Shown piece after piece: positions 1,367-12,391 of a stretch of DNA of 64,000 bases (the stretch's first letter is position 1; every line of letters starts with the position of its first letter). The notes beneath the pieces are model-generated. The model did no database searches. It was not told the origin of the DNA and saw only the letters and a list, made by a program, of their open reading frames with translations. Origin of the DNA: Curvibacter sp. (lineage in GTDB: Bacteria; Pseudomonadota; Gammaproteobacteria; Burkholderiales; Burkholderiaceae_C); NCBI GenBank assembly GCA_020621965.1, contig JAHRYV010000002.1:62001-126000 (forward strand), read 5' to 3'. Made by a program: the position numbers and the translations under genes.

Positions 1367-1390
1367 GAACGGGGCCTGTCGGCCCCGTTC
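1367..1390. terminator. Terminator-like hairpin (left repeat copy)
   Basis: Ten-base arms GAACGGGGCC / GGCCCCGTTC with a 4-nt loop lie 39 nt after the stop of the first gene. The T-run is poor (TCTCC), so termination may be weak. The same hairpin recurs at 8487-8510. Confidence 0.55.
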
Positions 1391-1412
1391 TCTCCGACGC
1401 TCCCGCTTCGAC

Positions 1413-1567
1413 TCACTCGTAGTCAAAATCCTCGCGGTAATCATCGGGATTGATCCCCTCCGCCCGCAGCGGCTCCACCAGGCGGTAGCGGGTGACCTTG
1501 GCGGAGGCGGTGATGTAGCCCTTGATGACGATCTCGCGGGTCACGGGGCTGTGCATCTCCCGGGCCA
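1413..1567 (-). pseudogene. Truncated 3' end of the VOC/PCP_red gene
   Basis: On the minus strand this encodes the last ~51 residues of the protein specified intact at 8533-9174, ending with the same YREDFDYE and stop. One of the few differences changes Gln to His (EMHSPVTR against EMQSPVTR). The similarity stops abruptly near 1567, where island sequence starts. It has no start codon or 5' part. It is best read as the original 3' end displaced by island insertion, or as the extra 3' end carried in by the island. Confidence 0.85.
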
Positions 1568-1613
1568 CCATCTGCGACACACGCTGTCGCATTCATGCGA
1601 ACAATTTCTACCC

Positions 1614-3371
1614 ATGAACCCGGGACAAATTTGGCTGGAAATCGATGGCCGATCCTTTGACTACGCACAGCAGGAGCTATTCCCGCTCGATTCGTGGGGT
1701 GCTGCTCAGTCCTTCTCCGTCATCGACTGGCCTCATCAAGCGATTGCCAGGGCGATGGTAGGCCCGCTTCGCCTCGGCGATCTTGGCGAATCCCGCGAAT
1801 ACTCATTGCAGTGTCTCGCCGTAACGGCTGACGGCGAGTTTGCCGCGTGCATCAGCGTGGAAGGGAGGCAATTTGGGGACGCGAGAGCCATGTGGGCGCA
1901 AGTGGCGTGCGAACTTGATGAAGCCAGGCGACGACCGCTATGCGACAAAGCCCATCGTGCCATGACGCCCAGCGATTGCCTGAGAGCGTGGTCGAATCCT
2001 GAATTCTGGATCACCCCACCAACTAGCGGGGATCCGGTTCATCGCTCGGTGCGTTCTCTGGCGCGGCTACTGGAGGTCCGTGAGATAGCGGAGACAGTCA
2101 TCTTGACGGATGAGCAGCGAATCAGGGTGGAGCGGGACGCGCATGCAGCCGTGGCAGGTCAAGTAGCCCCGGCCGTACTCAGTGTTCTCCGGGGCCTGAG
2201 AGCAGATCTGTTTGAGGTGATCAGCAGGCGGCAGGGCATCAGCATTTCCGTAGTGCACCGCCTCCTGGCACTGGCACGGCAGCATGGCCCCTCTGCCGTG
2301 CCCTTTGCCTTACAGGCCATCAAGACCGAATCGTTGCCGCTACTTCACCTGGCGGCGTCCGGATCCCCTCCGCAAGAGAGCCAACAGGTGCGTGAGGCGT
2401 TATTCAGTGGCCATAGCCTTCCGGATGCCTTGGCCGGAATGGGCGTTGTGAAGGCGGCGCATAGAAGATCACTCAGAAGGCCAGGCAGCAGCGAGGGGAG
2501 AGCTTCCGACGGACATGACGAGTTCAGCGAACTTCCGTTGTCCGGAGTGGAATGGTTGACCGTCATGCGTGCTGTCAAAACGCGGTGGGTTGACAGAGCC
2601 TCTGACTGGTCAGAACTTCGGCATCTGGTGATGAGTCTCTTTTCTTTGGATATGCGGGATCCGGCGACGGCGCCCAAGCTACTGTGGTGGTGCATAGCAC
2701 GCGGGTACAGACAATCCAGGTATCGGTTGGAGCGACTGGTTGAATTGGCACGAACGCTCCAGAAGGCGGCGAATCGCCTTGCGCACACGGAGGCGACTCT
2801 CGATCAGGCAATTTCTCTGGCAATGCCACAGGTCAACGAGTCGCACAGCGGTCAATGTTGCGGGGAAGGGGGGGGCGGCGCCGCGTTCTTGCCCCGGGAT
2901 GCCGGCCAACTCGCGATGCTGGTCTCCAGGCTCTCGGGTCAGTCCGTCGAGAAGCTCACCAGCAGCCTCTTTGAGGCACATCCGGGCATGCCGCCCGGAC
3001 TGCAGTTGCCTGTGGGCGTCACCATTGAGGCGCTGAGCGACGTTCAAGCCATAGTCAGCCACGGGACGGCATGTGGCATCTGCCTTCAAGATGTGGAGCG
3101 GGCGATCCAGTATTCGGCCGATGGGCTGGCTCTGTATGCCGTAACAGTGAAGGGCCGGATTGAAGGCACCATAGCCTTGAGTGGCTACGGATGCAGTCGA
3201 TATCAGAACGTACTGGTATACGAGGTGGCCGGAGTGGACAACGCGGAGCCGTCTGCCGAGTTGAGTCATTCGGCCCAGGCACTTGCTGACGCCTGGACGA
3301 CCGACGAGCAAATGGCCGCGTGGCTAGCCTACGACCGGGCGTGCGAACGGTGGAAGCAGTCCCTGGATTGA
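1614..3371 (+). CDS. Unknown 585-residue island protein
   Basis: I do not recognise this family. The start was set at the ATG beginning MNPGQIWLEIDG because everything upstream in frame runs through the duplicated VOC remnant; no clear Shine-Dalgarno sequence precedes it. No signal peptide or membrane segment is evident. The middle is helical and basic; residues ~408-420 hold a Cys/Gly-rich patch (QCCGEGGGG). The C-terminal 100 residues (SHGTACGICLQDVERAIQYS, then LALYAVTVKGRIEGTIALSG) faintly recall PcfJ-like C-terminal domains; this is only a hint. Base composition is less GC-rich than the flanking core genes, which fits transfer. It converges on the 3392-8301 operon with a 20-bp gap and is the only island gene on the plus strand. 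Confidence 0.6.
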   Translation: MNPGQIWLEIDGRSFDYAQQELFPLDSWGAAQSFSVIDWPHQAIARAMVGPLRLGDLGESREYSLQCLAVTADGEFAACISVEGRQFGDARAMWAQVACELDEARRRPLCDKAHRAMTPSDCLRAWSNPEFWITPPTSGDPVHRSVRSLARLLEVREIAETVILTDEQRIRVERDAHAAVAGQVAPAVLSVLRGLRADLFEVISRRQGISISVVHRLLALARQHGPSAVPFALQAIKTESLPLLHLAASGSPPQESQQVREALFSGHSLPDALAGMGVVKAAHRRSLRRPGSSEGRASDGHDEFSELPLSGVEWLTVMRAVKTRWVDRASDWSELRHLVMSLFSLDMRDPATAPKLLWWCIARGYRQSRYRLERLVELARTLQKAANRLAHTEATLDQAISLAMPQVNESHSGQCCGEGGGGAAFLPRDAGQLAMLVSRLSGQSVEKLTSSLFEAHPGMPPGLQLPVGVTIEALSDVQAIVSHGTACGICLQDVERAIQYSADGLALYAVTVKGRIEGTIALSGYGCSRYQNVLVYEVAGVDNAEPSAELSHSAQALADAWTTDEQMAAWLAYDRACERWKQSLD

Positions 3372-3391: not shown

Positions 3392-3943
3392 CTACCTCGT
3401 GCCCAGCCATTGCCAGAACTCTTCCGGCATTTCCCCCTCGACGGCTTCGATGGTTCGCACGTCAACCGTTGAATTGCAGCCCATCAGCGGGACCTCGATT
3501 ACCGCCGATTGGCTGGACCAGTCCATGACCAGATATCGGATGTCGTTCTCGTCGTAGGCAATCAACTTGACGCGTCCGTGGCCGAACAGCCTCATGGTCT
3601 TGCCAAACTGCTCCCGCTTCTTCAGCACCACCAGATCGCCGACGCAGATGCTGTTGAAGCGTTCAAGCTGCTGAGTGCTCTCCAGATAGTCAAAACGGCA
3701 GATGCCCTTGGCCTTCCACTCTATGTCCAGGCGATCGTTGAAATCCGCGCCCGGGCAAAAGCCCATGAATAGCACATATGCGTCGGCCGGCTTGGCCTGA
3801 TTGATGGCCGAAACAACGTGCTCAGCGTCCCGGTCCCCTGCTGCAATTTTTGCGTGAGCATTTTCTCGGAGTGCGATCAGGTCAGCGCGGGTCATTGCGC
3901 CACTTTGAATTCGTTCAAGCGCTTTTGCGTACTTCATTAGCAT
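3392..3943 (-). CDS. Small unknown protein, possible PUA/EVE-like fold, last gene of island operon
   Basis: 183 residues, no signal peptide or membrane segment. An N-terminal helix (MKYAKALERIQSG, with MTRADLIALRENAHAKIAAG following) precedes a beta-rich body with GDLVVLKKREQFGKTMRLFG, then RYLVMDWSSQ and a conserved-looking acidic tail EMPEEFWQWLG. The GDxVVLKKR strand followed by glycine-rich turns resembles small nucleic-acid-binding PUA-superfamily barrels (EVE/ASCH type); that is inference without a family match. Two in-frame ATGs (3943 and 3937) are possible; the first is used. It lies 83 bp after the Nmad2-like gene, so it could be co-transcribed or have its own promoter in that AT-richer gap. 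Confidence 0.6.
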   Translation of the reverse strand: MLMKYAKALERIQSGAMTRADLIALRENAHAKIAAGDRDAEHVVSAINQAKPADAYVLFMGFCPGADFNDRLDIEWKAKGICRFDYLESTQQLERFNSICVGDLVVLKKREQFGKTMRLFGHGRVKLIAYDENDIRYLVMDWSSQSAVIEVPLMGCNSTVDVRTIEAVEGEMPEEFWQWLGTR

Positions 3944-4026
3944 TAGAGTTTACGAAAGTGTTTAGCCAGTGTGGGTCGCATTTGGATATTGTGGCTGCCG
4001 ATCTCGACTTCTCATGAAGAAATCGC

Positions 4027-4764
4027 TTAGAAAGTCGTTTCCTCGTCGTTCGCATCATTGACGCGCTCGTCAGCACGACCACGGGCGCATTTGGACTGGT
4101 TCTTCGACTCAGGGGGGATATCTGGCTGTCCATATTTCCCATATGAACGAATTCCTGGATGTTTCTGTAGCTGTCCGTTGAAGTTTTCAATGAACGGCTC
4201 GATGAAGGCACCGTTCAAATTGGATATGTGCCCCCGCCCTGGAAGGCGCATGTCAGGATGAAGAAAGAATTCATAGGGGGCGCCGCGCTCGTCTCTTCCC
4301 GAGCCGAAATACCAGAATCGTGTACTGAGTAACACGAATTTGTTGCCCTTGATGTCCCGATCAAAGGAATCAAGATCATGCCCCGAGTGACCGCTGCGAA
4401 CCTTGGTGTCAATCGTACTCCCGTACCAGATGCAGTCGCCCTGGTCAGTTTCTTTGTTGGGGACCTTGATGCCGATTCGTGCATATTCAGAGCGGTTGCC
4501 TACAGCTGGCGGTGTCGTGCACAGTTTGATGTAATCATCCCATCGCATCTTGTCCGTCACCTCCATGCAGTACACGATGCGACGGGAATCGCCGGGCTCT
4601 AGTCCAACAACAATGTCGCCGACGTTGGCTGCGTTGCGAATTGCCGGTTTACAGATCGCTAGCGTGCAGACTCTTCCGTATGGATTGGGAGCGGTGCCAG
4701 CGTCGAACGCGACTTTGTATGTAAAGAGTCGGGGGCGAGTGGCGCCCACTTCCAAGAGTTCCAT
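4027..4764 (-). CDS. Nmad2-like putative nucleotide-modification-associated protein
   Basis: 245 residues, cytosolic by sequence. The first ~100 residues match the pattern I associate with the Nmad2 family (nucleotide modification associated domain 2): RLFTYKVAFDAGTAPNPYG, then VCTLAICKPAIR, NVGDIVVGLEPG and RIVYCMEVTDKM. A large aromatic middle follows (FVLLSTRFWYFGSG, PYEFFLHPDMRLPGRG) and a charged, probably disordered tail. Nmad families were named for neighbourhoods of DNA base-modification genes; a molecular activity has not to my knowledge been shown. It starts 5 nt after the stop of the Nmad3-like gene, so the two are almost certainly co-translated. Confidence 0.6.
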   Translation of the reverse strand: MELLEVGATRPRLFTYKVAFDAGTAPNPYGRVCTLAICKPAIRNAANVGDIVVGLEPGDSRRIVYCMEVTDKMRWDDYIKLCTTPPAVGNRSEYARIGIKVPNKETDQGDCIWYGSTIDTKVRSGHSGHDLDSFDRDIKGNKFVLLSTRFWYFGSGRDERGAPYEFFLHPDMRLPGRGHISNLNGAFIEPFIENFNGQLQKHPGIRSYGKYGQPDIPPESKNQSKCARGRADERVNDANDEETTF

Positions 4765-4769
4765 GTCTT

Positions 4770-5480
4770 CTACCAGTTGTTGTTGTGCAGTGCCGGATGT
4801 TGCTCATTCAGCCAGGACATGAACTGCGCCGGCCTGTCGAACCAGGGCGGATTCGCGCTGCGCTGGATATATCCGTCTTGGACACCTAAGCCGCCCCATG
4901 CGTCCAGCATGCCTTCTGTCACACGGTAGGCCCCATTTCGGAATTCGCCAATGGAGATTGCGCTGCCAAAGCGCCCTGATCGCTCTGGCTGGCCAAATAC
5001 CACGAGGTGCTCACCATTCATGTCGGCGATCCGGGTATGAGCATTCAGGTGATGCTGTTCCGTCGGCAGGTCGGCAACCCTGACAACTTTGTTCACAACC
5101 AGGATGCCGAAAAGAGCATAGACCAGACGATGTCTGCAGGGGGCGATGGGTTTGAAGCTGGCAAAGAAGGCAATGAAGTCGCCAGGGTTCAGATCGCGCA
5201 CCCGATTGCCTCGGCCGGTCCCCTGGTCGCCATAGGTCAGAGAAGAGAAATCCGGGTCGAGATGACAGTTGAGGTCGATCAGGTGCTTCGGGAACAATTC
5301 AGCAACCCCGTTCCGCTTGGACCATGCGTTGAAGCTGTGCACTATGCTGTTGTAGCTCGTCTGCATTCCCGCCTGGAAGACATGCTTACTCTCAGGTATG
5401 GGGAGATATAGGTAGTCGTTGGTCTCAGGATTGATGGGCGCGTTGTATTGGCCAAATGTCTTGTCGATGCCAACGCGCAT
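4770..5480 (-). CDS. Nmad3-like putative nucleotide-modification-associated protein
   Basis: 236 residues from the chosen ATG at 5480, which is preceded by AAAGGA at proper spacing and gives the typical family start MRVGIDKTFGQ; an upstream ATG at 5504 lacks a ribosome site. Family-like motifs in order: YLYLPIPE near residue 25, HLDPDFSSLTYGD near 75, and NPGDFIAFFASFKPI near 100, matching the HLDPD and GDxFxFF signatures I associate with Nmad3. No signal or membrane segment. It sits between the small repeat protein and the Nmad2-like gene in a tight operon. A role in sensing or making modified nucleotides is a guess from family naming and context. Confidence 0.6.
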   Translation of the reverse strand: MRVGIDKTFGQYNAPINPETNDYLYLPIPESKHVFQAGMQTSYNSIVHSFNAWSKRNGVAELFPKHLIDLNCHLDPDFSSLTYGDQGTGRGNRVRDLNPGDFIAFFASFKPIAPCRHRLVYALFGILVVNKVVRVADLPTEQHHLNAHTRIADMNGEHLVVFGQPERSGRFGSAISIGEFRNGAYRVTEGMLDAWGGLGVQDGYIQRSANPPWFDRPAQFMSWLNEQHPALHNNNW

Positions 5481-5518
5481 CAGAAGTCCTTTGGGCTGAG
5501 TCATCTAGACTACCGCGC

Positions 5519-5839
5519 TCACCACAGGCGCAAGGCCAGCTGCCCTGCAATGACCAAGGCTGGCGCATCACCAATCTCGTAGGTGTTGGCCGAGGTGACG
5601 TTTGCCTTGGGCTTGATCTTGTGGCTGTCAACCACCCAGGTGTTCTGGGAAGTCGCACCGTTTTTCGGTTTCAGTTCCTTGCCGGTCCAGATCCAGGTAT
5701 TGCTGGACAGCGCGCCGATTTTTGGTTTGATTTCGTTGCCGCTCATGACCCAGGTGTTGCTGCTGGTCGCGCCGTTCTTGGGCTTCAACTCGGTGCCGGT
5801 GCAAACCCACTGGTTGGGCAGTTCAATCCGATTGCTCAT
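5519..5839 (-). CDS. 106-residue tandem-repeat beta protein
   Basis: The protein is built from four consecutive ~19-residue units plus a cap: NQWVCTGTELKPKNGATSS, NTWVMSGNEIKPKIGALSS, NTWIWTGKELKPKNGATSQ, NTWVVDSHKIKPKANVTSA, then NTYEIGDAPALVIAG and a short tail. Each unit has a conserved Asn, Trp, (usually) Gly and L/I-K-P-K, the pattern of one beta-hairpin per unit, suggesting a small closed symmetric beta structure comparable to the beta-flower or beta-prism folds. That fold is inference. There is no signal peptide. The start codon overlaps the WYL stop by 4 bp (ATGA), so translation is coupled; this association argues it is a working part of the island system and not a spurious frame. 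Confidence 0.75.
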   Translation of the reverse strand: MSNRIELPNQWVCTGTELKPKNGATSSNTWVMSGNEIKPKIGALSSNTWIWTGKELKPKNGATSQNTWVVDSHKIKPKANVTSANTYEIGDAPALVIAGQLALRLW

Positions 5840-6798
5840 TGCTTTTCCTCCTTCTTTTTAATCTCTGTGACAGCGTCACCAAACCCGCGCAACCACCAGT
5901 CCAACATGGCTGAGTCGACGACCGTGGCGGTAATTGCGTAGGCGGTTTCCAGCTCTTTGACTTGCTGGTCCGTGGACAGCGGCGACTCCAAGAGATGGTA
6001 GCCGGCCTCTTTGTCGATCCTGAAGCTCAGGCGTACTCGTTTTCCCTCGCCATAGCCGAAGCGACCATCGTCGTCGAAGTCCTTGAGATTGAATTCCCGT
6101 GGACGGTCGAAGTGCAGGGTGGACGCCTGGGCGGAACTGAAACGATGCAGCGCCAAGCAGCGTTCGTTGTCATAGCCCTCGAAACGGCAGACCAGGTACA
6201 GGCGCGGACCTTGCTGGGCCAGGCCCAGGGGCATGACGCGGGCCTGGATCTGGTGGCCAGCTGCATTCTTGTAGTCCACATCCAGCCATTGGTCAGCGTA
6301 GAGCGCATTGCTGACCTGCTCGAAGACGTCGGGGTCAACTTTCGGGGGCAGCAGTGGCTGCGTCGTGCTGACGACGCGCACCTTGTTCAGCCACGCCCGA
6401 TCCCGCGCGGGGGTTTCGGGGGCCCCCAGGTTGCTGCGGGCTTGGGCGAAGAAGCCTTCCATGGACTTCATCAGGCGGGCCGGCAGCAGGCTGGACAGCT
6501 GCTGTTCGGCCAGCATCAGCAGCAGGGATTCTTGCGCGCTCAGGCCTGGAAGGGACAGGCCCTTGGCCCGCTCCTTCCAGCAATAGCGGTAGGGCTTGGT
6601 GCTGTCGTCGCGCTCGATGTCGTAGAACTCGGACAGCGTTTCCAGCTGGCGCTGGATGGTGCGCATATCGCGCTCGTAGCCCGCTTCCGCCAGTTGCTGG
6701 TGGAGTTCAGTGGCGGTGACGGTTCGGCCCTTGGGGATGCGGCGCAGCAGCTCCAGCGAGAGCCGCAGGGTTTCCATGGGGTCAGGGCGTTTGGGCAT
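5836..6798 (-). CDS. WYL-domain transcriptional regulator
   Basis: 320 residues. The N-terminal ~70 residues form a winged helix (TVTATELHQQLAEAGYERD, then RTIQRQLETLSEFYDIE), a linker follows, and residues ~165-245 carry a WYL-type domain (WLDVDYKNAAGHQ, then VMPLGLAQQGPRLYLVCRFE) with a C-terminal WCX-like extension (RVRLSFRIDKEAGYHLLESP). WYL regulators often repress anti-phage defence operons and release on a nucleotide or nucleic-acid ligand; that is family knowledge. Here it is the second gene of the island operon, 3 nt after DUF2779, and probably autoregulates through the inverted repeat at 8345-8375. The C-terminus is an unusual lysine/glutamate tail. Confidence 0.88.
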   Translation of the reverse strand: MPKRPDPMETLRLSLELLRRIPKGRTVTATELHQQLAEAGYERDMRTIQRQLETLSEFYDIERDDSTKPYRYCWKERAKGLSLPGLSAQESLLLMLAEQQLSSLLPARLMKSMEGFFAQARSNLGAPETPARDRAWLNKVRVVSTTQPLLPPKVDPDVFEQVSNALYADQWLDVDYKNAAGHQIQARVMPLGLAQQGPRLYLVCRFEGYDNERCLALHRFSSAQASTLHFDRPREFNLKDFDDDGRFGYGEGKRVRLSFRIDKEAGYHLLESPLSTDQQVKELETAYAITATVVDSAMLDWWLRGFGDAVTEIKKKEEKQ

Positions 6799-6801
6799 GG
6801 G

Positions 6802-8301
6802 TCACAGCTCCAGCTCGGTTCGACCGGAAAACACTTGCCACAGACGCACCATGGCATAGGTATCGAGTTGGCAATACGCGAGCAGCTGCCGCCGGATCTC
6901 GCTCTTGCGCTCCGGCGGGGTGGCGGGATGGATGGCTTCGAGGAACGCCTCCATCGCCATGCCGCCGTCCTGCACCCCCTCCAGCTTGTCGTAGCTCAGC
7001 TCGGGAACGGCCGCGGGCAGCACCTTCTTGATGCTCCAGCTGCCCTGCTGACGGGGATGGTAGTAATGATCCCTGGCGACCGGCAGCAGGTCGACGATAC
7101 GTTCGTTCAACGACAGGAGGCGGTCGCGCAGGGCCGGAAAGCGGCTGGCGAGCTCGGCAATGCGGGTCGTTTCGAAGGCTGCGTTGTAGACATAGATCGG
7201 TCCGATCTCTCCGCAGGCCGCGATCAGCTGGTTGGCAAAGGCTGCTGACGGGTCAGCGCCGGAAAGGTCCAGGAAGCCCTGCTGCTGAAGCTGGCCGTGC
7301 GCATCCAGCGTGTGCAGGCTGAACTGGAACGGAATCTGCTGATACGGGCGGGTACCCGCCCAGATCGGCACCGCGAACTGGATGGTTTCGAAATCCAGGA
7401 AACAGGCTGGGAAGCCGTGGTGGGCGAGTGCCGCCACGGCCCCCTCCCGGTCGAAGTAGACGGTATTGGCCAGGGTGTGCGCCCTGACGCGCTGCTGGGT
7501 GGCGTTGAGCAACTCGACCGGCACATCCCGCATCTCGATCACGCCGCACTGCCGGAGCTCCTGGGCTTTTGCTGCGGGAAAACGCGGCAACCACATGACC
7601 GGGTGTTCGGCCTTCGGCTCGTTCTGGCTGCAATAGTCATAGAAACCGCAAGCGTAGGGGATGTCGCAATGCGGACCCGTGCTTCGTTCCGGTTCCGTCG
7701 GACTGGCGTCAACATCTCGTGCTTGGTCGATCCAGGTTCGGACTTCGTCGGACCGCGAAAACGCCTCCTCAGTCAGATCCACCTCGGTCAGCAGCCCGCC
7801 GTAGTCGTTGTTGCCCGGGTAAGTCCAGGAGCTGTCGATGTGGGCCAGTCTCAGTGACCGCAACGACACGCCAGCCGACCTTGCGACGTAGGCCTGGACC
7901 GCCACATCATCGTGGTGATAGTCCTTGACGCTGGTCGAGGACTTGACCTCGACCATGCACCAGCCAGTTTGGCTCCCTACAGGCTCGGGCAACATCACAT
8001 CAGCCAGGGCAAGGGCCCCGCCAGCGGAGAAAGCCGCCTCGAAAATAGGACGATCGCCCAGCAGTGACTCCTGGGTTCGGGTAAAGGCCGTCTGAAAGTC
8101 GCCATTGCTGACATCGATCAGCACGCCGTCGCCAGCCGGGTCGTAGAGTTCGCGCGCGATGTCGCCGACCTGATAACCGGCCTGAAAGCGCGCCTCGGTG
8201 GCAGCGGAGTCGTGGCGCAGTTCCGGGCGATGGATTTCCAGCCATAGCCGCTTCGGGCACTGACGCAACGCCAAGAGCTTGGACTTGGAATATGTACGCA
8301 T
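6802..8301 (-). CDS. DUF2779 protein: Cas4-like Fe-S nuclease fused to DEDD-type exonuclease-like domain
   Basis: 499 residues, first gene of the island operon. Residues 1-225 look like a PD-(D/E)XK nuclease of Cas4/AddB type: D101 (LADVMLPEP), then E118 and K120 (MVEVKSS), with Q136 behind, plus four cysteines placed to bind an Fe-S cluster (C15 in LRQCPKRLWLE; C212, C218 and C224 in HCDIPYACGFYDYC). Residues ~295-490 resemble an RNase H-fold 3'-5' exonuclease: D303 and E305 in CFLDFETIQF, a YVYNAAFE block, and D480 in YCQLDTYAM. This two-domain layout is that of DUF2779. All key residues are present, so it should be active on DNA or RNA. Activity and substrate are inferred. Confidence 0.85.
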   Translation of the reverse strand: MRTYSKSKLLALRQCPKRLWLEIHRPELRHDSAATEARFQAGYQVGDIARELYDPAGDGVLIDVSNGDFQTAFTRTQESLLGDRPIFEAAFSAGGALALADVMLPEPVGSQTGWCMVEVKSSTSVKDYHHDDVAVQAYVARSAGVSLRSLRLAHIDSSWTYPGNNDYGGLLTEVDLTEEAFSRSDEVRTWIDQARDVDASPTEPERSTGPHCDIPYACGFYDYCSQNEPKAEHPVMWLPRFPAAKAQELRQCGVIEMRDVPVELLNATQQRVRAHTLANTVYFDREGAVAALAHHGFPACFLDFETIQFAVPIWAGTRPYQQIPFQFSLHTLDAHGQLQQQGFLDLSGADPSAAFANQLIAACGEIGPIYVYNAAFETTRIAELASRFPALRDRLLSLNERIVDLLPVARDHYYHPRQQGSWSIKKVLPAAVPELSYDKLEGVQDGGMAMEAFLEAIHPATPPERKSEIRRQLLAYCQLDTYAMVRLWQVFSGRTELEL

Positions 8302-8344
8302 TGCGTGCCCTTTTCTTGGAAGTGTTTCTGGGGCAGATTATGAC

Positions 8345-8375
8345 CACACGTGCGACATTTTGTGTCGGACTCGTG
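8345..8375. promoter_or_regulatory. Candidate operator of the island operon
   Basis: An imperfect inverted repeat, CACACGTGCGACA and TGTCGGACTCGTG, separated by 5 nt (10 of 13 positions pair), lies 44 nt upstream of the DUF2779 start. It is the only obvious dyad in the leader. Binding by the WYL regulator is inference. Confidence 0.45.
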
Positions 8376-8484
8376 ATGAGCATTTCTCACTTCGTCTTCC
8401 GCGGTTACGGCTGCTTCTAATGTTGACTGTCCGCTTTCGTCGATCATGAAAACCCGCTCTGGGCCGACCAGAGACTCTCCAAAC

Positions 8485-8687
8485 AGAAACGGGGCCAGCC
8501 GGCCCCGTTTTCCTTGACGCTCCCGCAACGACTCACTCGTAGTCAAAATCCTCGCGGTAGTCGTCAGGATTGATCCCCTCCGCCCGCAGCGGCTCCACCA
8601 GGCGGTAGCGGGTGACCTTGGCGGAGGCGGTGATGTAGCCCTTGATGACGATCTCGCGGGTCACGGGGCTTTGCATCTCCCGCGCCA
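8485..8687. repeat. Right copy of ~200-bp direct repeat flanking the island
   Basis: Counterpart of 1365-1567, in the same orientation. Here it is joined to the complete VOC/PCP_red gene. The island between the copies is about 6.9 kb. Confidence 0.85.
8487..8514. terminator. Terminator of the VOC/PCP_red gene (right repeat copy)
   Basis: Arms AAACGGGGCC / GGCCCCGTTT with a 4-nt loop lie 23 bp beyond the VOC stop; A- and T-runs on both sides allow bidirectional use. Confidence 0.65.
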
Positions 8688-9174
8688 GCAGCTCGATCAC
8701 CTTGGTGGTCTTGCGCCGCGCCAGCATGCGGAACAGGGCCGGCACATGGGTCAGCAGGCGCTTGAGCAGGTCTTCGGCCTCCGGGGTCCACTCGCCCTGT
8801 TTGGGCAGCTCGGGCACGAAACCCCACTCGTCTTCCGTCAGCGCGCGCCACAGCACGATGGAGTGGCCGTCGGCATCGCTGACGCAGGCCATCTCTTCCA
8901 GCTCCGGCGTGCGCATGGGCTCGTAGCGCGCCGCGGCGCCGGCGGCCAGCAGGGCCTGGTAGGCCTCCTGCACATTGCCCACCGTCAGGCGCAGCGAGAC
9001 CTTGGTTTCGACGGCGGGCACCTGCAGCAGGCGGATGGCCACGTTGCCGGTGTCGATGTCCAGATAACCCTCGCCGCGGCGCGACTCGGCAAAACCCATG
9101 ACATCGCGCCACAGGCGGGCGGCGCGTTGCAGATCCGTGACCGGCACGACCAGATGGCTGACCCCGAAGAACAT
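8533..9174 (-). CDS. VOC-fold protein with C-terminal PCP_red domain
   Basis: 213 residues. Residues 1-115 are a vicinal-oxygen-chelate (glyoxalase/bleomycin-resistance) domain: VSHLVVPVTDLQRAARLWRD at the start and CVSDADGHSIVLWRAL at the end. The C-terminal part, from WTPEAEDLLKRLLTHVPALF, matches the PCP_red helical domain known from light-independent protochlorophyllide reductase subunits and stand-alone proteins. The function is unknown; a metal-dependent small-molecule enzyme is possible. The last 51 codons are duplicated at 1413-1567, so this gene's 3' end is the island junction. It is divergent from the PEBP gene. Confidence 0.75.
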   Translation of the reverse strand: MFFGVSHLVVPVTDLQRAARLWRDVMGFAESRRGEGYLDIDTGNVAIRLLQVPAVETKVSLRLTVGNVQEAYQALLAAGAAARYEPMRTPELEEMACVSDADGHSIVLWRALTEDEWGFVPELPKQGEWTPEAEDLLKRLLTHVPALFRMLARRKTTKVIELLAREMQSPVTREIVIKGYITASAKVTRYRLVEPLRAEGINPDDYREDFDYE

Positions 9175-11157: not shown

Positions 11158-11207
11158 TTGTTTCTCATTATTGACAAAATGGACTAAATGCCTAGAATGA
11201 GAAACAA
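11158..11207 (+). promoter_or_regulatory. Promoter wrapped in a 12-bp inverted repeat (autoregulatory operator)
   Basis: Perfect arms TTGTTTCTCATT (11158-11169) and AATGAGAAACAA (11196-11207) flank a consensus sigma-70 promoter: TTGACA at 11171 and TAGAAT at 11193, 16 bp apart. The arms cover both ends of the promoter, the usual design for repression by a paired HTH antitoxin. Confidence 0.8.
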
Positions 11208-11208
11208 T

Positions 11209-11694
11209 ATGCCAGCACCAACTCCTATCGTCCCCGCTGCCGTGGCCGAGAAGCTCAAGGCCCTCGGGGAGAAGATTCGCGCCCATCGCAAGGCGCTGCG
11301 CGTCAGCGCCACCACGGCGGCGCAGGCGGCGGGCATGTCGCGTGTCACCTTGCATCGCATCGAAAACGGTGAACCCTCGGTGACCATGGGCGCCTATCTC
11401 AACGCCATGGCGGCGTTGGGGCTGGACTTCGGCATCCTCGGCGCGCCCGCTGCCGACAAGAATGCCGACGAACGCAAAGACTGGATTCCGGCGCGCATCC
11501 GCCTGGCCGACTACCCGCAACTCAAGCAGCTCGCCTGGCAGGTGCACGGCACCGATGCGCTGACACCCGCCGAGGCCCTGAGCATCTACGAGCGCAACTG
11601 GCGCCATCTGGACGTGGCGGCCATGGAGCCGCGAGAGCGCAACCTGGTGGACGCCTTGCGCCTGGCACTCGGAGAGGGTGCGGGCCGTGTTTAG
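11209..11694 (+). CDS. XRE-family HTH antitoxin/regulator
   Basis: 161 residues from the ATG at 11209. Upstream in-frame ATGs (11188, 11197) lie inside the promoter, so a near-leaderless start at 11209 is favoured. Residues ~10-70 are a Cro/C1-type helix-turn-helix: EKIRAHRKALRVSATTAAQ, then AAGMSRVTLHRIENGEPSV and MGAYLNAMAALGLD. The C-terminal ~80 residues (WQVHGTDALTPAEALSIYER) are a helical extension expected to contact the toxin. It overlaps the downstream nucleotidyltransferase by 8 bp. It most likely binds the inverted repeat around its promoter and represses the pair. Confidence 0.85.
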   Translation: MPAPTPIVPAAVAEKLKALGEKIRAHRKALRVSATTAAQAAGMSRVTLHRIENGEPSVTMGAYLNAMAALGLDFGILGAPAADKNADERKDWIPARIRLADYPQLKQLAWQVHGTDALTPAEALSIYERNWRHLDVAAMEPRERNLVDALRLALGEGAGRV

Positions 11695-12391
11695 GCGCTC
11701 GCATCACCAGCGCATTGCGCAGGTGCTGGGCGCGCTCAATGGCCCGCTGCTGCGCGCCAACGGCTGCCTGTTTGGCGGCGACACGGCCATTGCGCTGCGC
11801 TACGGCGAATACCGCGAGTCGGTGGATATCGACTTCATGGTGTCGGACGTGCATGGCTACCGCGCCCTGCGCCAGTTGCTGACCGGCGCGCAAGGCGTAG
11901 GGGCCATGGTGCGCGAAGGCGCCGCGCCCCTGGAGCAGGCCCGCGACATAAGAGCCGATCAGTACGGCATCCGCACCATGCTGCGAGTGACCGAACAACC
12001 CATCAAGCTGGAGATCGTTCTCGAAGGCCGCATCGAATTTGCACCGCCCGGCCCCGCTGACGAAATCTGCGGCATCGCCACGCTGACGCCGCTGGACATG
12101 GCGGCGAGCAAGCTGCTGGCCAACTCCGACCGTTGGAACGACGACGGTGTGTTCAACCGCGACCTCATCGACCTGGCCATGATGAGCCTGCCGCTGCCCC
12201 TGCTGCGCAAGGCCCTGGCCAAAGCCGAGCAGGCCTACGGCCCATCCGTGCGCGATGACCTCGCCAAGGCCATCGACCGCTTCCAGGCCCGCCAGGGCTG
12301 GGCCGAGCGCTGCATGCAAGTCATGGCGATGGACGGCCCCAAGGCGCTGCTGTGGCAGAAGGTGCGCGCGCTGGAGCGGGTGCTGCGGTGA
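11687..12391 (+). CDS. AbiEii/MenT-type nucleotidyltransferase toxin
   Basis: 234 residues; the GTG at 11687 is preferred because GGAGAGG lies 9 nt upstream (a GTG at 11678 is too close to it). The nucleotidyltransferase core is evident: GGDTAIALRYGEYRES followed by VDIDFM, and later PLDMAASKLLANSDRWNDD with FNRDLIDLAMM, as in the AbiEii/AbiGii toxin family. Members transfer nucleotides to tRNA or other acceptors and are held in check by a cognate regulator or antitoxin; that is family knowledge. The overlap with the XRE gene and the shared operator make a toxin-antitoxin or abortive-infection pair likely. A 100-bp remnant-like stretch without a gene follows. Confidence 0.85.
   Translation: MFRRSHHQRIAQVLGALNGPLLRANGCLFGGDTAIALRYGEYRESVDIDFMVSDVHGYRALRQLLTGAQGVGAMVREGAAPLEQARDIRADQYGIRTMLRVTEQPIKLEIVLEGRIEFAPPGPADEICGIATLTPLDMAASKLLANSDRWNDDGVFNRDLIDLAMMSLPLPLLRKALAKAEQAYGPSVRDDLAKAIDRFQARQGWAERCMQVMAMDGPKALLWQKVRALERVLR

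Follow-up and report, generated by a model that had tools for sequence, protein, structure and literature searches.

Among homologues of the WYL regulator BrxR, 48% co-localize with known phage defense systems, according to the excerpted text of one study (PMC9122601). Proteins of the DUF2779 family have been grouped with presumed 3′-5′ exonucleases of the RNase H-like superfamily and described as containing a DUF83 domain (PMC3985635, excerpt), and an NMAD-labeled protein, its family unspecified, stands in a figure legend on the validated systems of DefensePredictor and among the predicted systems of another figure (PMC13092281, excerpt). Here we describe the gene families, gene order, recurrence, and signs of horizontal acquisition of an operon from Curvibacter sp. 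in which DUF2779, WYL, Nmad3, and Nmad2 genes stand together. It occupies positions 3392 to 8301 of a 64,000-nucleotide (nt) stretch, called the window throughout (assembly GCA_020621965.1, contig JAHRYV010000002.1, positions 62,001 to 126,000 of the forward strand). Because the same four-gene core was found in three other bacteria, it may represent an undescribed defense system against viruses or other foreign DNA; defense is our best inference, and an anti-phage role by association is plausible.

Gene families of the operon

A sequence-only reading of the window had proposed a candidate defense or DNA-modification system of six genes read leftward, with tight packing among the first five. 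All six open reading frames (ORFs) are present on the - strand across 3392-8301, and the first five (G-F-E-D-C) are as compact as proposed: G and F are separated by 3 nt, F and E overlap by 4 nt, and gaps of 14 nt (E-D), 5 nt (D-C), and 83 nt (C-B) follow. In operon order, the genes are as follows.

6802..8301, - strand: G, 499 amino acids, DUF2779 protein with an N-terminal Cas4-like PD-(D/E)XK-type region with conserved Cys and a C-terminal DEDD-type exonuclease region
5836..6798, - strand: F, 320 amino acids, HTH (helix-turn-helix)-WYL regulator, the probable repressor or sensor of the operon
5519..5839, - strand: E, 106 amino acids, four 19-residue repeats and a C-terminal hydrophobic stretch (by eye)
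4770..5504, - strand: D, 244 amino acids, Nmad3, short form
4027..4764, - strand: C, 245 amino acids, Nmad2
3392..3943, - strand: B, 183 amino acids, orphan, final gene of the operon, 83 nt past C and outside the conserved core

Each of the four families named in that reading scored above its curated Pfam cutoff, so that the two Nmad proteins are not placed elsewhere: G belongs to DUF2779 (PF11074; 6.3e-43, 146.5 bits, cutoff 23.3), F to WYL (PF13280; 3.4e-9, 37 bits, cutoff 21.8, with a WCX match of 4.3e-4 below its own cutoff), D to Nmad3 (PF18754; 1.2e-22, 81.2 bits, cutoff 27), and C to Nmad2 (PF18753; 9.7e-32, 110.5 bits, cutoff 26.1). The Pfam names Nmad2 and Nmad3 reportedly derive from earlier association studies. 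For F and G, PADLOC returned only generic profiles, of WYL (F at 4e-15) and of Cas4 type; it returned nothing for A to E and no system-specific match, and a literature search of limited reach found no publication describing the DUF2779-WYL-Nmad3-Nmad2 composition, in keeping with the earlier remark that no named system of such a composition was known to its author.

The catalytic residues proposed for G are likewise borne out as residues of catalytic type: in an alignment of 26 DUF2779 proteins, the columns of C15, D101, E118, K120, Q136, C212, and C218 are conserved in 24 or more, as are those of D303, E305, D404, Y476, and D480. We take these conserved motifs to be of the Cas4 type and the DEDDy type. 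The placement of DUF2779 in the excerpted part of PMC3985635 agrees with these residues. Against the Cas4 profile itself (PF01930, Cas_Cas4), G scores 18.1 bits, under the cutoff of 22.7 and thus short of membership, and with the conserved Cys and the D/E/K/Q pattern kept, it would be Cas4-like at most in its manner of working. Relatives of F at 51 to 65% identity adjoin various operons on plasmids. In searches of the PDB, no solved-structure relative was found for G or D, phmmer gave none for F at E≤0.01, and a match to C at E 0.57 was taken as chance.

D is 58% identical to two Methylobacter Nmad3 proteins, and its residues G12, H81, D83, P84, G92, G108, D109, and H156 are among the invariant columns of 13 aligned Nmad3 proteins; in C, the residues Y16, D21, C38, K39, P40, D110, H129, D137, Y152, and G154 are among the invariant columns of 35 aligned Nmad2 proteins. 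Profile comparison supported neither a relationship between Nmad2 and Nmad3 nor B as a third Nmad-type protein, the hhalign probabilities being 1.1% or less. In Pfam, neither C nor D had a match to an EVE, SRA, or YTH family. Viral contigs searched with alignments A6 and A7 for relatives of Nmad2 and Nmad3 gave no match.

Co-occurrence of the four families

In our phylum sample of 398 genomes (the Curvibacter genome included), Nmad3 was found in nine and Nmad2 in six; three genomes carry both (Curvibacter, G006, and G070), and the two genes are adjacent in all three. DUF2779 relatives of G occur in 24 of the 398 genomes, at 28 places. Of these places, 27 are outside the window, and larger stretches were taken for 25 of them; nine of the 25 hold a WYL gene, two of the nine being weak matches (L055, L056), and in five (L061, L068, L069, L070, and L074) WYL shares the strand of DUF2779 at a distance of no more than 200 nt.

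A scan of the genome collection with the Nmad2 alignment gave 229 relatives, of which the best 80 by similarity to C were studied as loci. On raw DNA, all 80 contain Nmad2 and 14 contain Nmad3; after ORF calling, Nmad2 genes were present in 71 and Nmad3 together with Nmad2 in 12. Two loci, L090 and L103, carry all four families on one strand in the order DUF2779 - WYL - Nmad3 - Nmad2, as in the window, and genome G006 (locus L074) carries all four in another arrangement. The sequence-only reading had named a lack of conserved co-occurrence beyond DUF2779-WYL as the result that would speak against it; because the four families recur together in L090, L103, and G006, co-occurrence does extend beyond that pair. 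What recurs is a four-gene core, G-F-D-C, and not the six-gene system first proposed: no relative of B or E was seen in L090, L103, or G006, and both proteins are rare. L090 has a PcfJ protein (6.1e-9) between DUF2779 and WYL. We also observed, at L090:5147-5425 (+), a protein of 92 amino acids in E's operon position that by eye is a Cys-rich repeat protein and does not resemble E; small repeat proteins of different kinds may occupy this slot between WYL and Nmad3.

To gauge this association, we counted 15 same-strand adjacent Nmad2-Nmad3 pairs besides the window, comprising 13 of the 14 collection loci (L111, with Nmad3 on the opposite strand, was excluded), G006, and G070. DUF2779 and WYL lie within 6 kb of three of the 15 pairs (L090, L103, and G006), and DUF2779 is found in none of the 73 Nmad2 loci without Nmad3 and in none of the eight Nmad3 loci without Nmad2. 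For the 13 ORF-called pairs, 0.0024 DUF2779 genes would be expected within 6 kb (Poisson probability of at least three, 2e-9, or 2e-6 at tenfold density); the density is that of one phylum at an assumed genome size of 3.7 Mb, the loci vary in length with some ended by contig ends, and the two pairs added on raw DNA lengthen the flanks by about one-seventh and leave the picture unchanged. Nmad3 comes first in the window, L090, L103, and two Methylobacter pairs, and Nmad2 comes first in the other 11 pairs. In L108 (Polaromonas), a shortened WYL ORF, 73% identical to F, adjoins Nmad2-Nmad3, with no DUF2779.

Other features of the Nmad pairs were noted in passing. The two Methylobacter loci have short segments that look similar by eye, one upstream of the Nmad pair (L089:8707-8940) and one at the end of the Nmad2 ORF (C-terminal part of L088:9974-10954), and these may mark the ends of a mobile unit. 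At L110:9998-12171 (+), Nmad2-Nmad3 is followed by a protein of 206 amino acids with a PD-(D/E)XK-like stretch by eye and no Pfam or PADLOC match.

Nmad2 keeps other company as well, much of it of defense type. Of 72 loci (the window and, from the best 80 of 229, the 71 with a called gene), 37 have a ThsB-like TIR gene within four genes of Nmad2, and 36 such genes immediately precede Nmad2 on its own strand; MazG is near Nmad2 in 29 loci and UDG in 24, and both often come after it. The ThsB identity was checked in two examples (PADLOC ThsB, 6.5e-58; Pfam ThsB_TIR, 1.2e-18). A run of ThsB-like TIR, Nmad2, MazG_C, and UDG recurs in L008, L005, L111, L007, and others, such runs being present both on plasmids and on genome contigs, and the TIR-Nmad2 runs include a 5-hmdU-kinase-type protein in L007 and a thymidylate-synthase-like protein (by eye) in L085 and L117. 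The literature search, of limited reach, found no publication with the TIR-Nmad2-MazG-UDG set.

The island and its rare proteins

The operon lies in an island that had been proposed as bounded, and its ends are marked by direct repeats of 206 nt with 93% identity; GC content between the repeats is 0.592 versus 0.673 in window positions 8694-64000. Inside the repeats is also an ORF on the + strand that was not part of the first account (A). The remaining features of the island are as follows.

1614..3371, + strand: A, orphan ORF of 585 codons (585 amino acids), convergent with B, within the same island
1368..1573, no strand: left direct repeat, a partial copy comprising the 3′ end of a VOC/DUF2621 gene and a hairpin
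8488..8693, no strand: right direct repeat, where the intact VOC/DUF2621 gene (8533-9174, -) has its 3′ end and its hairpin

The 3′ end of the VOC gene is present in part a third time (171 nt, 88%) on the same contig, 3.0 to 3.2 kb left of the window start (-3187..-3017; L185:15815-15985), and the extra copies terminate at differing points within the gene. With three direct copies of one gene end, the arrangement resembles the outcome of several insertions at the VOC gene's 3′ end or of recombination across it. No island protein matched an integrase family in the Pfam search, and a search of 11 relatives did not find the VOC gene, so that no empty site could be shown. The operon is real and apparently horizontally acquired. 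Beyond the island, an AbiEi-type HTH protein and an AbiEii nucleotidyltransferase form a pair (type IV toxin-antitoxin) at window 11188-12391 (+), 2.9 kb from G and outside the repeats, and a protein of 1241 amino acids with no Pfam or PADLOC match is encoded at L185:11041-14766 (+), left of the third repeat copy.

The 19-residue repeat reported for E is present in four copies, the first at residue 11. E has two Pfam matches, both at chance level, and no family of its own; its one clear relative in the data searched is a Salinibacter plasmid repeat protein (43 to 47%), which scores 1.6e-4 and 22 bits against Bflower_3 (PF21786), below the cutoff of 34. E itself is listed at E≤10 under none of the beta-flower profiles PF21784-PF21786 and so falls outside their membership. 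Beta-flower proteins are characterized, in an excerpt of the work on that fold (PMC10584680), by repeats of short length, the motif [DNEQ]XXG, and in many cases a hydrophobic helix at the C terminus, and E is perhaps beta-flower-like. Because E also matches the PDB glucosaminidase chain 7pl2 at 6.2e-5, its repeat could conceivably be of a wall-binding type. One further borderline match (6.3e-4) was found among 396 genomes, and no relative was confirmed in viral contigs; a residue-pattern search of other loci gave no E-like repeat that we take as real, one long L113 protein having matched the pattern twice.

B matched its own genome alone among the 396 searched, had no match in 72,556 plasmids, and has no Pfam family listed at E≤10; its scores against TIGR00624 (20 bits, cutoff 232.5) and the PDB (0.81) were taken as chance. 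A has no Pfam family and no plasmid match. Its length is similar to that of the L090 PcfJ protein, and we considered A as a PcfJ-like partner; we rejected this idea, since the pairwise and HMM (hidden Markov model) comparisons were not significant (E 0.79 and 0.47) and A is without a Pfam match.

Readings of the operon and likeness to known systems

Our leading reading, held tentatively and as somewhat short of probable, is that the island carries a horizontally acquired, WYL-controlled module against phages or mobile elements, with G-F-D-C as its core, that would work like modification-directed restriction. F would hold the operon low until released by binding a nucleic-acid-type signal made during infection, as suggested by WYL regulators of the BrxR/CapW type. 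Nmad3 and Nmad2, produced as a pair, would then recognize or process abnormal (modified or damaged) bases in invading DNA; we propose this step because the frequent neighbors of Nmad2 elsewhere are UDG, MazG, and ThsB-like TIR genes and, at one locus, a 5-hmdU-kinase-type protein. From the resulting ends, G would degrade the marked DNA with its Cas4-type nuclease and DEDD-type exonuclease regions, to judge from their conserved residues, and E and B would be accessory cargo. Nmad2 and Nmad3 are profile names for which we met no assigned activity; if both are tied in a compact operon to a single nuclease and a single switch, it becomes possible to test what their substrate is.

Several observations weigh against this reading. 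Outside the window, only three loci hold the full four-gene core; two of these are on short contigs of metagenome-assembled genomes (7.0 and 7.5 kb), and the layout of the core is loosened in two of the three: an opposite-strand RhuM/Fic-type gene separates WYL from Nmad3 in L103, and in G006 DUF2779-WYL lies on one strand and Nmad2-Nmad3 on the other, 2.1 kb away, with a transposase-like gene of 457 amino acids (by eye) between the two halves. Nmad3 is of the short form in the window and of the long form in L090, L103, and G006. Twelve of the 15 Nmad pairs are without DUF2779, the two nearest relatives of D-C (Methylobacter) are without G-F, and pairs L097, L119, and L137 have apparent housekeeping neighbors or no recognized defense gene (by eye). 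Upstream of G, we found no promoter and, in 8295-8500, no inverted repeat of at least 8 nt, and GC content breaks inside the operon, from 0.551 in B-E to 0.627 in F-G. In the DUF2779 tree (31 rows), the Nmad-linked genes are not one group, and three changes are needed, possibly one gain and two losses. The Nmad2 tree (48 rows: the window, 14 ORF-called Nmad3-bearing loci, and roughly half of the remaining loci) groups the window with L090, Methylobacter, and Hydromonas (100/100); G006 falls elsewhere, and the branch of L103 is long. Taken together, the two trees mean that the combination was put together, exchanged, or lost on more than one occasion. Finally, D residues 63-144 match the phage family phrog_34025, function unknown (2.7e-7, PHROGs), and a single viral contig has a 31-residue match to D; a phage-side role for D is conceivable.

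Some of these points favor the strongest counter-reading, a serious possibility if a somewhat doubtful one, in which two independent modules have one promoter and one island in common without a common mechanism: a mobile DUF2779-WYL pair of nuclease plus switch and a separate Nmad3-Nmad2 unit, with E and B as unrelated cargo. The GC break, the separate tree placements, and the 12 Nmad pairs without DUF2779 fit it, as does DUF2779-WYL without Nmad genes in Rhodoferax and Diaphorobacter. G's four nearest relatives (57 to 60%) are on plasmids of Rhodoferax antarcticus and Diaphorobacter (the closest, at about 60%), on a Paraburkholderia plasmid, and on viral contig L172. None of these four stretches has Nmad genes. 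The Rhodoferax plasmid (L174) carries an IetA-like ATPase, DUF2779, WYL, and PDC-M27A/B/C in one run, with the DUF2779-WYL pair set inside another candidate defense operon, and the Diaphorobacter plasmid carries an ATP-binding protein gene, then DUF2779, then WYL; the Paraburkholderia DUF2779 has no WYL in its stretch, and that of L172 has a PLD-type protein next and no WYL, both of which count against a fixed core. WYL genes of the F type, without DUF2779, head other gene runs in Pantoea, Raoultella, Citrobacter (by annotation only), and Vibrio, not all of which we claim as defense genes. We suggest that DUF2779-WYL is a reusable module able to join different candidate defense operons. Against two wholly independent units stand the presence of DUF2779 and WYL at three of 15 other pairs versus 0 of 81 single-Nmad loci, and the gene order shared by three diverged loci, with the Nmad3-first arrangement confined to these and the two Methylobacter pairs.

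It is unlikely that the operon is an abortive-infection or nucleotide-depleting system in which Nmad2 and Nmad3 are the toxic or signal-handling part and G supports them, with no direct cutting of modified DNA. The frequency of ThsB-like TIR genes near Nmad2, nearly all of them directly upstream on the same strand, argues for such a role, as does the AbiEi/AbiEii pair near G (outside the repeats), but no TIR, SIR2, or other NADase-type family was matched by the island proteins in Pfam, and the partners of Nmad2 in the window are Nmad3 and a nuclease. Also rather improbable is an undescribed, base-excision-like class of restriction, in which Nmad3-Nmad2, as an enzyme or reader of two subunits, would open DNA where bases are hypermodified or damaged, and G, with its Cas4-type and DEDD-type nucleases in one chain, would resect both strands from there under WYL control. 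The DNA-modification alternative of the sequence-only reading, with C and D modifying host DNA and G cutting unmodified DNA, has the Pfam names of C and D in its favor and can be largely set aside as very improbable, with no methyltransferase or other known modifying enzyme recognized in the island (Pfam) and no match for C or one long-form Nmad3 (the queries; D was not among them) in 50,697 phage records, a set in which one would expect to meet modification genes.

Compared with known systems, the module of our leading reading shares a part with each and differs in the rest. E resembles the beta-flower proteins (PF21784-PF21786; PMC10584680, excerpt) in its short repeat and C-terminal hydrophobic stretch, with a Salinibacter relative weakly under PF21786, but is itself under none of the three profiles. 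Modification-dependent (type IV-like) restriction such as EVE-HNH would have the proposed logic of abnormal-base handling plus a nuclease in common with the operon; unlike it, C and D match no EVE, SRA, or YTH family, and the island has no McrBC-type protein. The TIR-Nmad2-MazG-UDG operons likewise have Nmad2 as a recurrent member of a defense-like operon, whereas no TIR, MazG, or UDG is found among the island proteins (Pfam) and Nmad2 is paired with Nmad3 and the DUF2779 nuclease. With the regulators of the BrxR/CapW type, F shares an HTH-WYL protein encoded within a defense-type operon, a likeness drawn from family and operon position; F differs in being the second gene, behind the nuclease. 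The Rhodoferax antarcticus plasmid locus has an AAA ATPase upstream and PDC-M27 candidates downstream where the window has Nmad genes, and it shares with the window adjacent DUF2779 (60%) and WYL (65%) genes in the same order.

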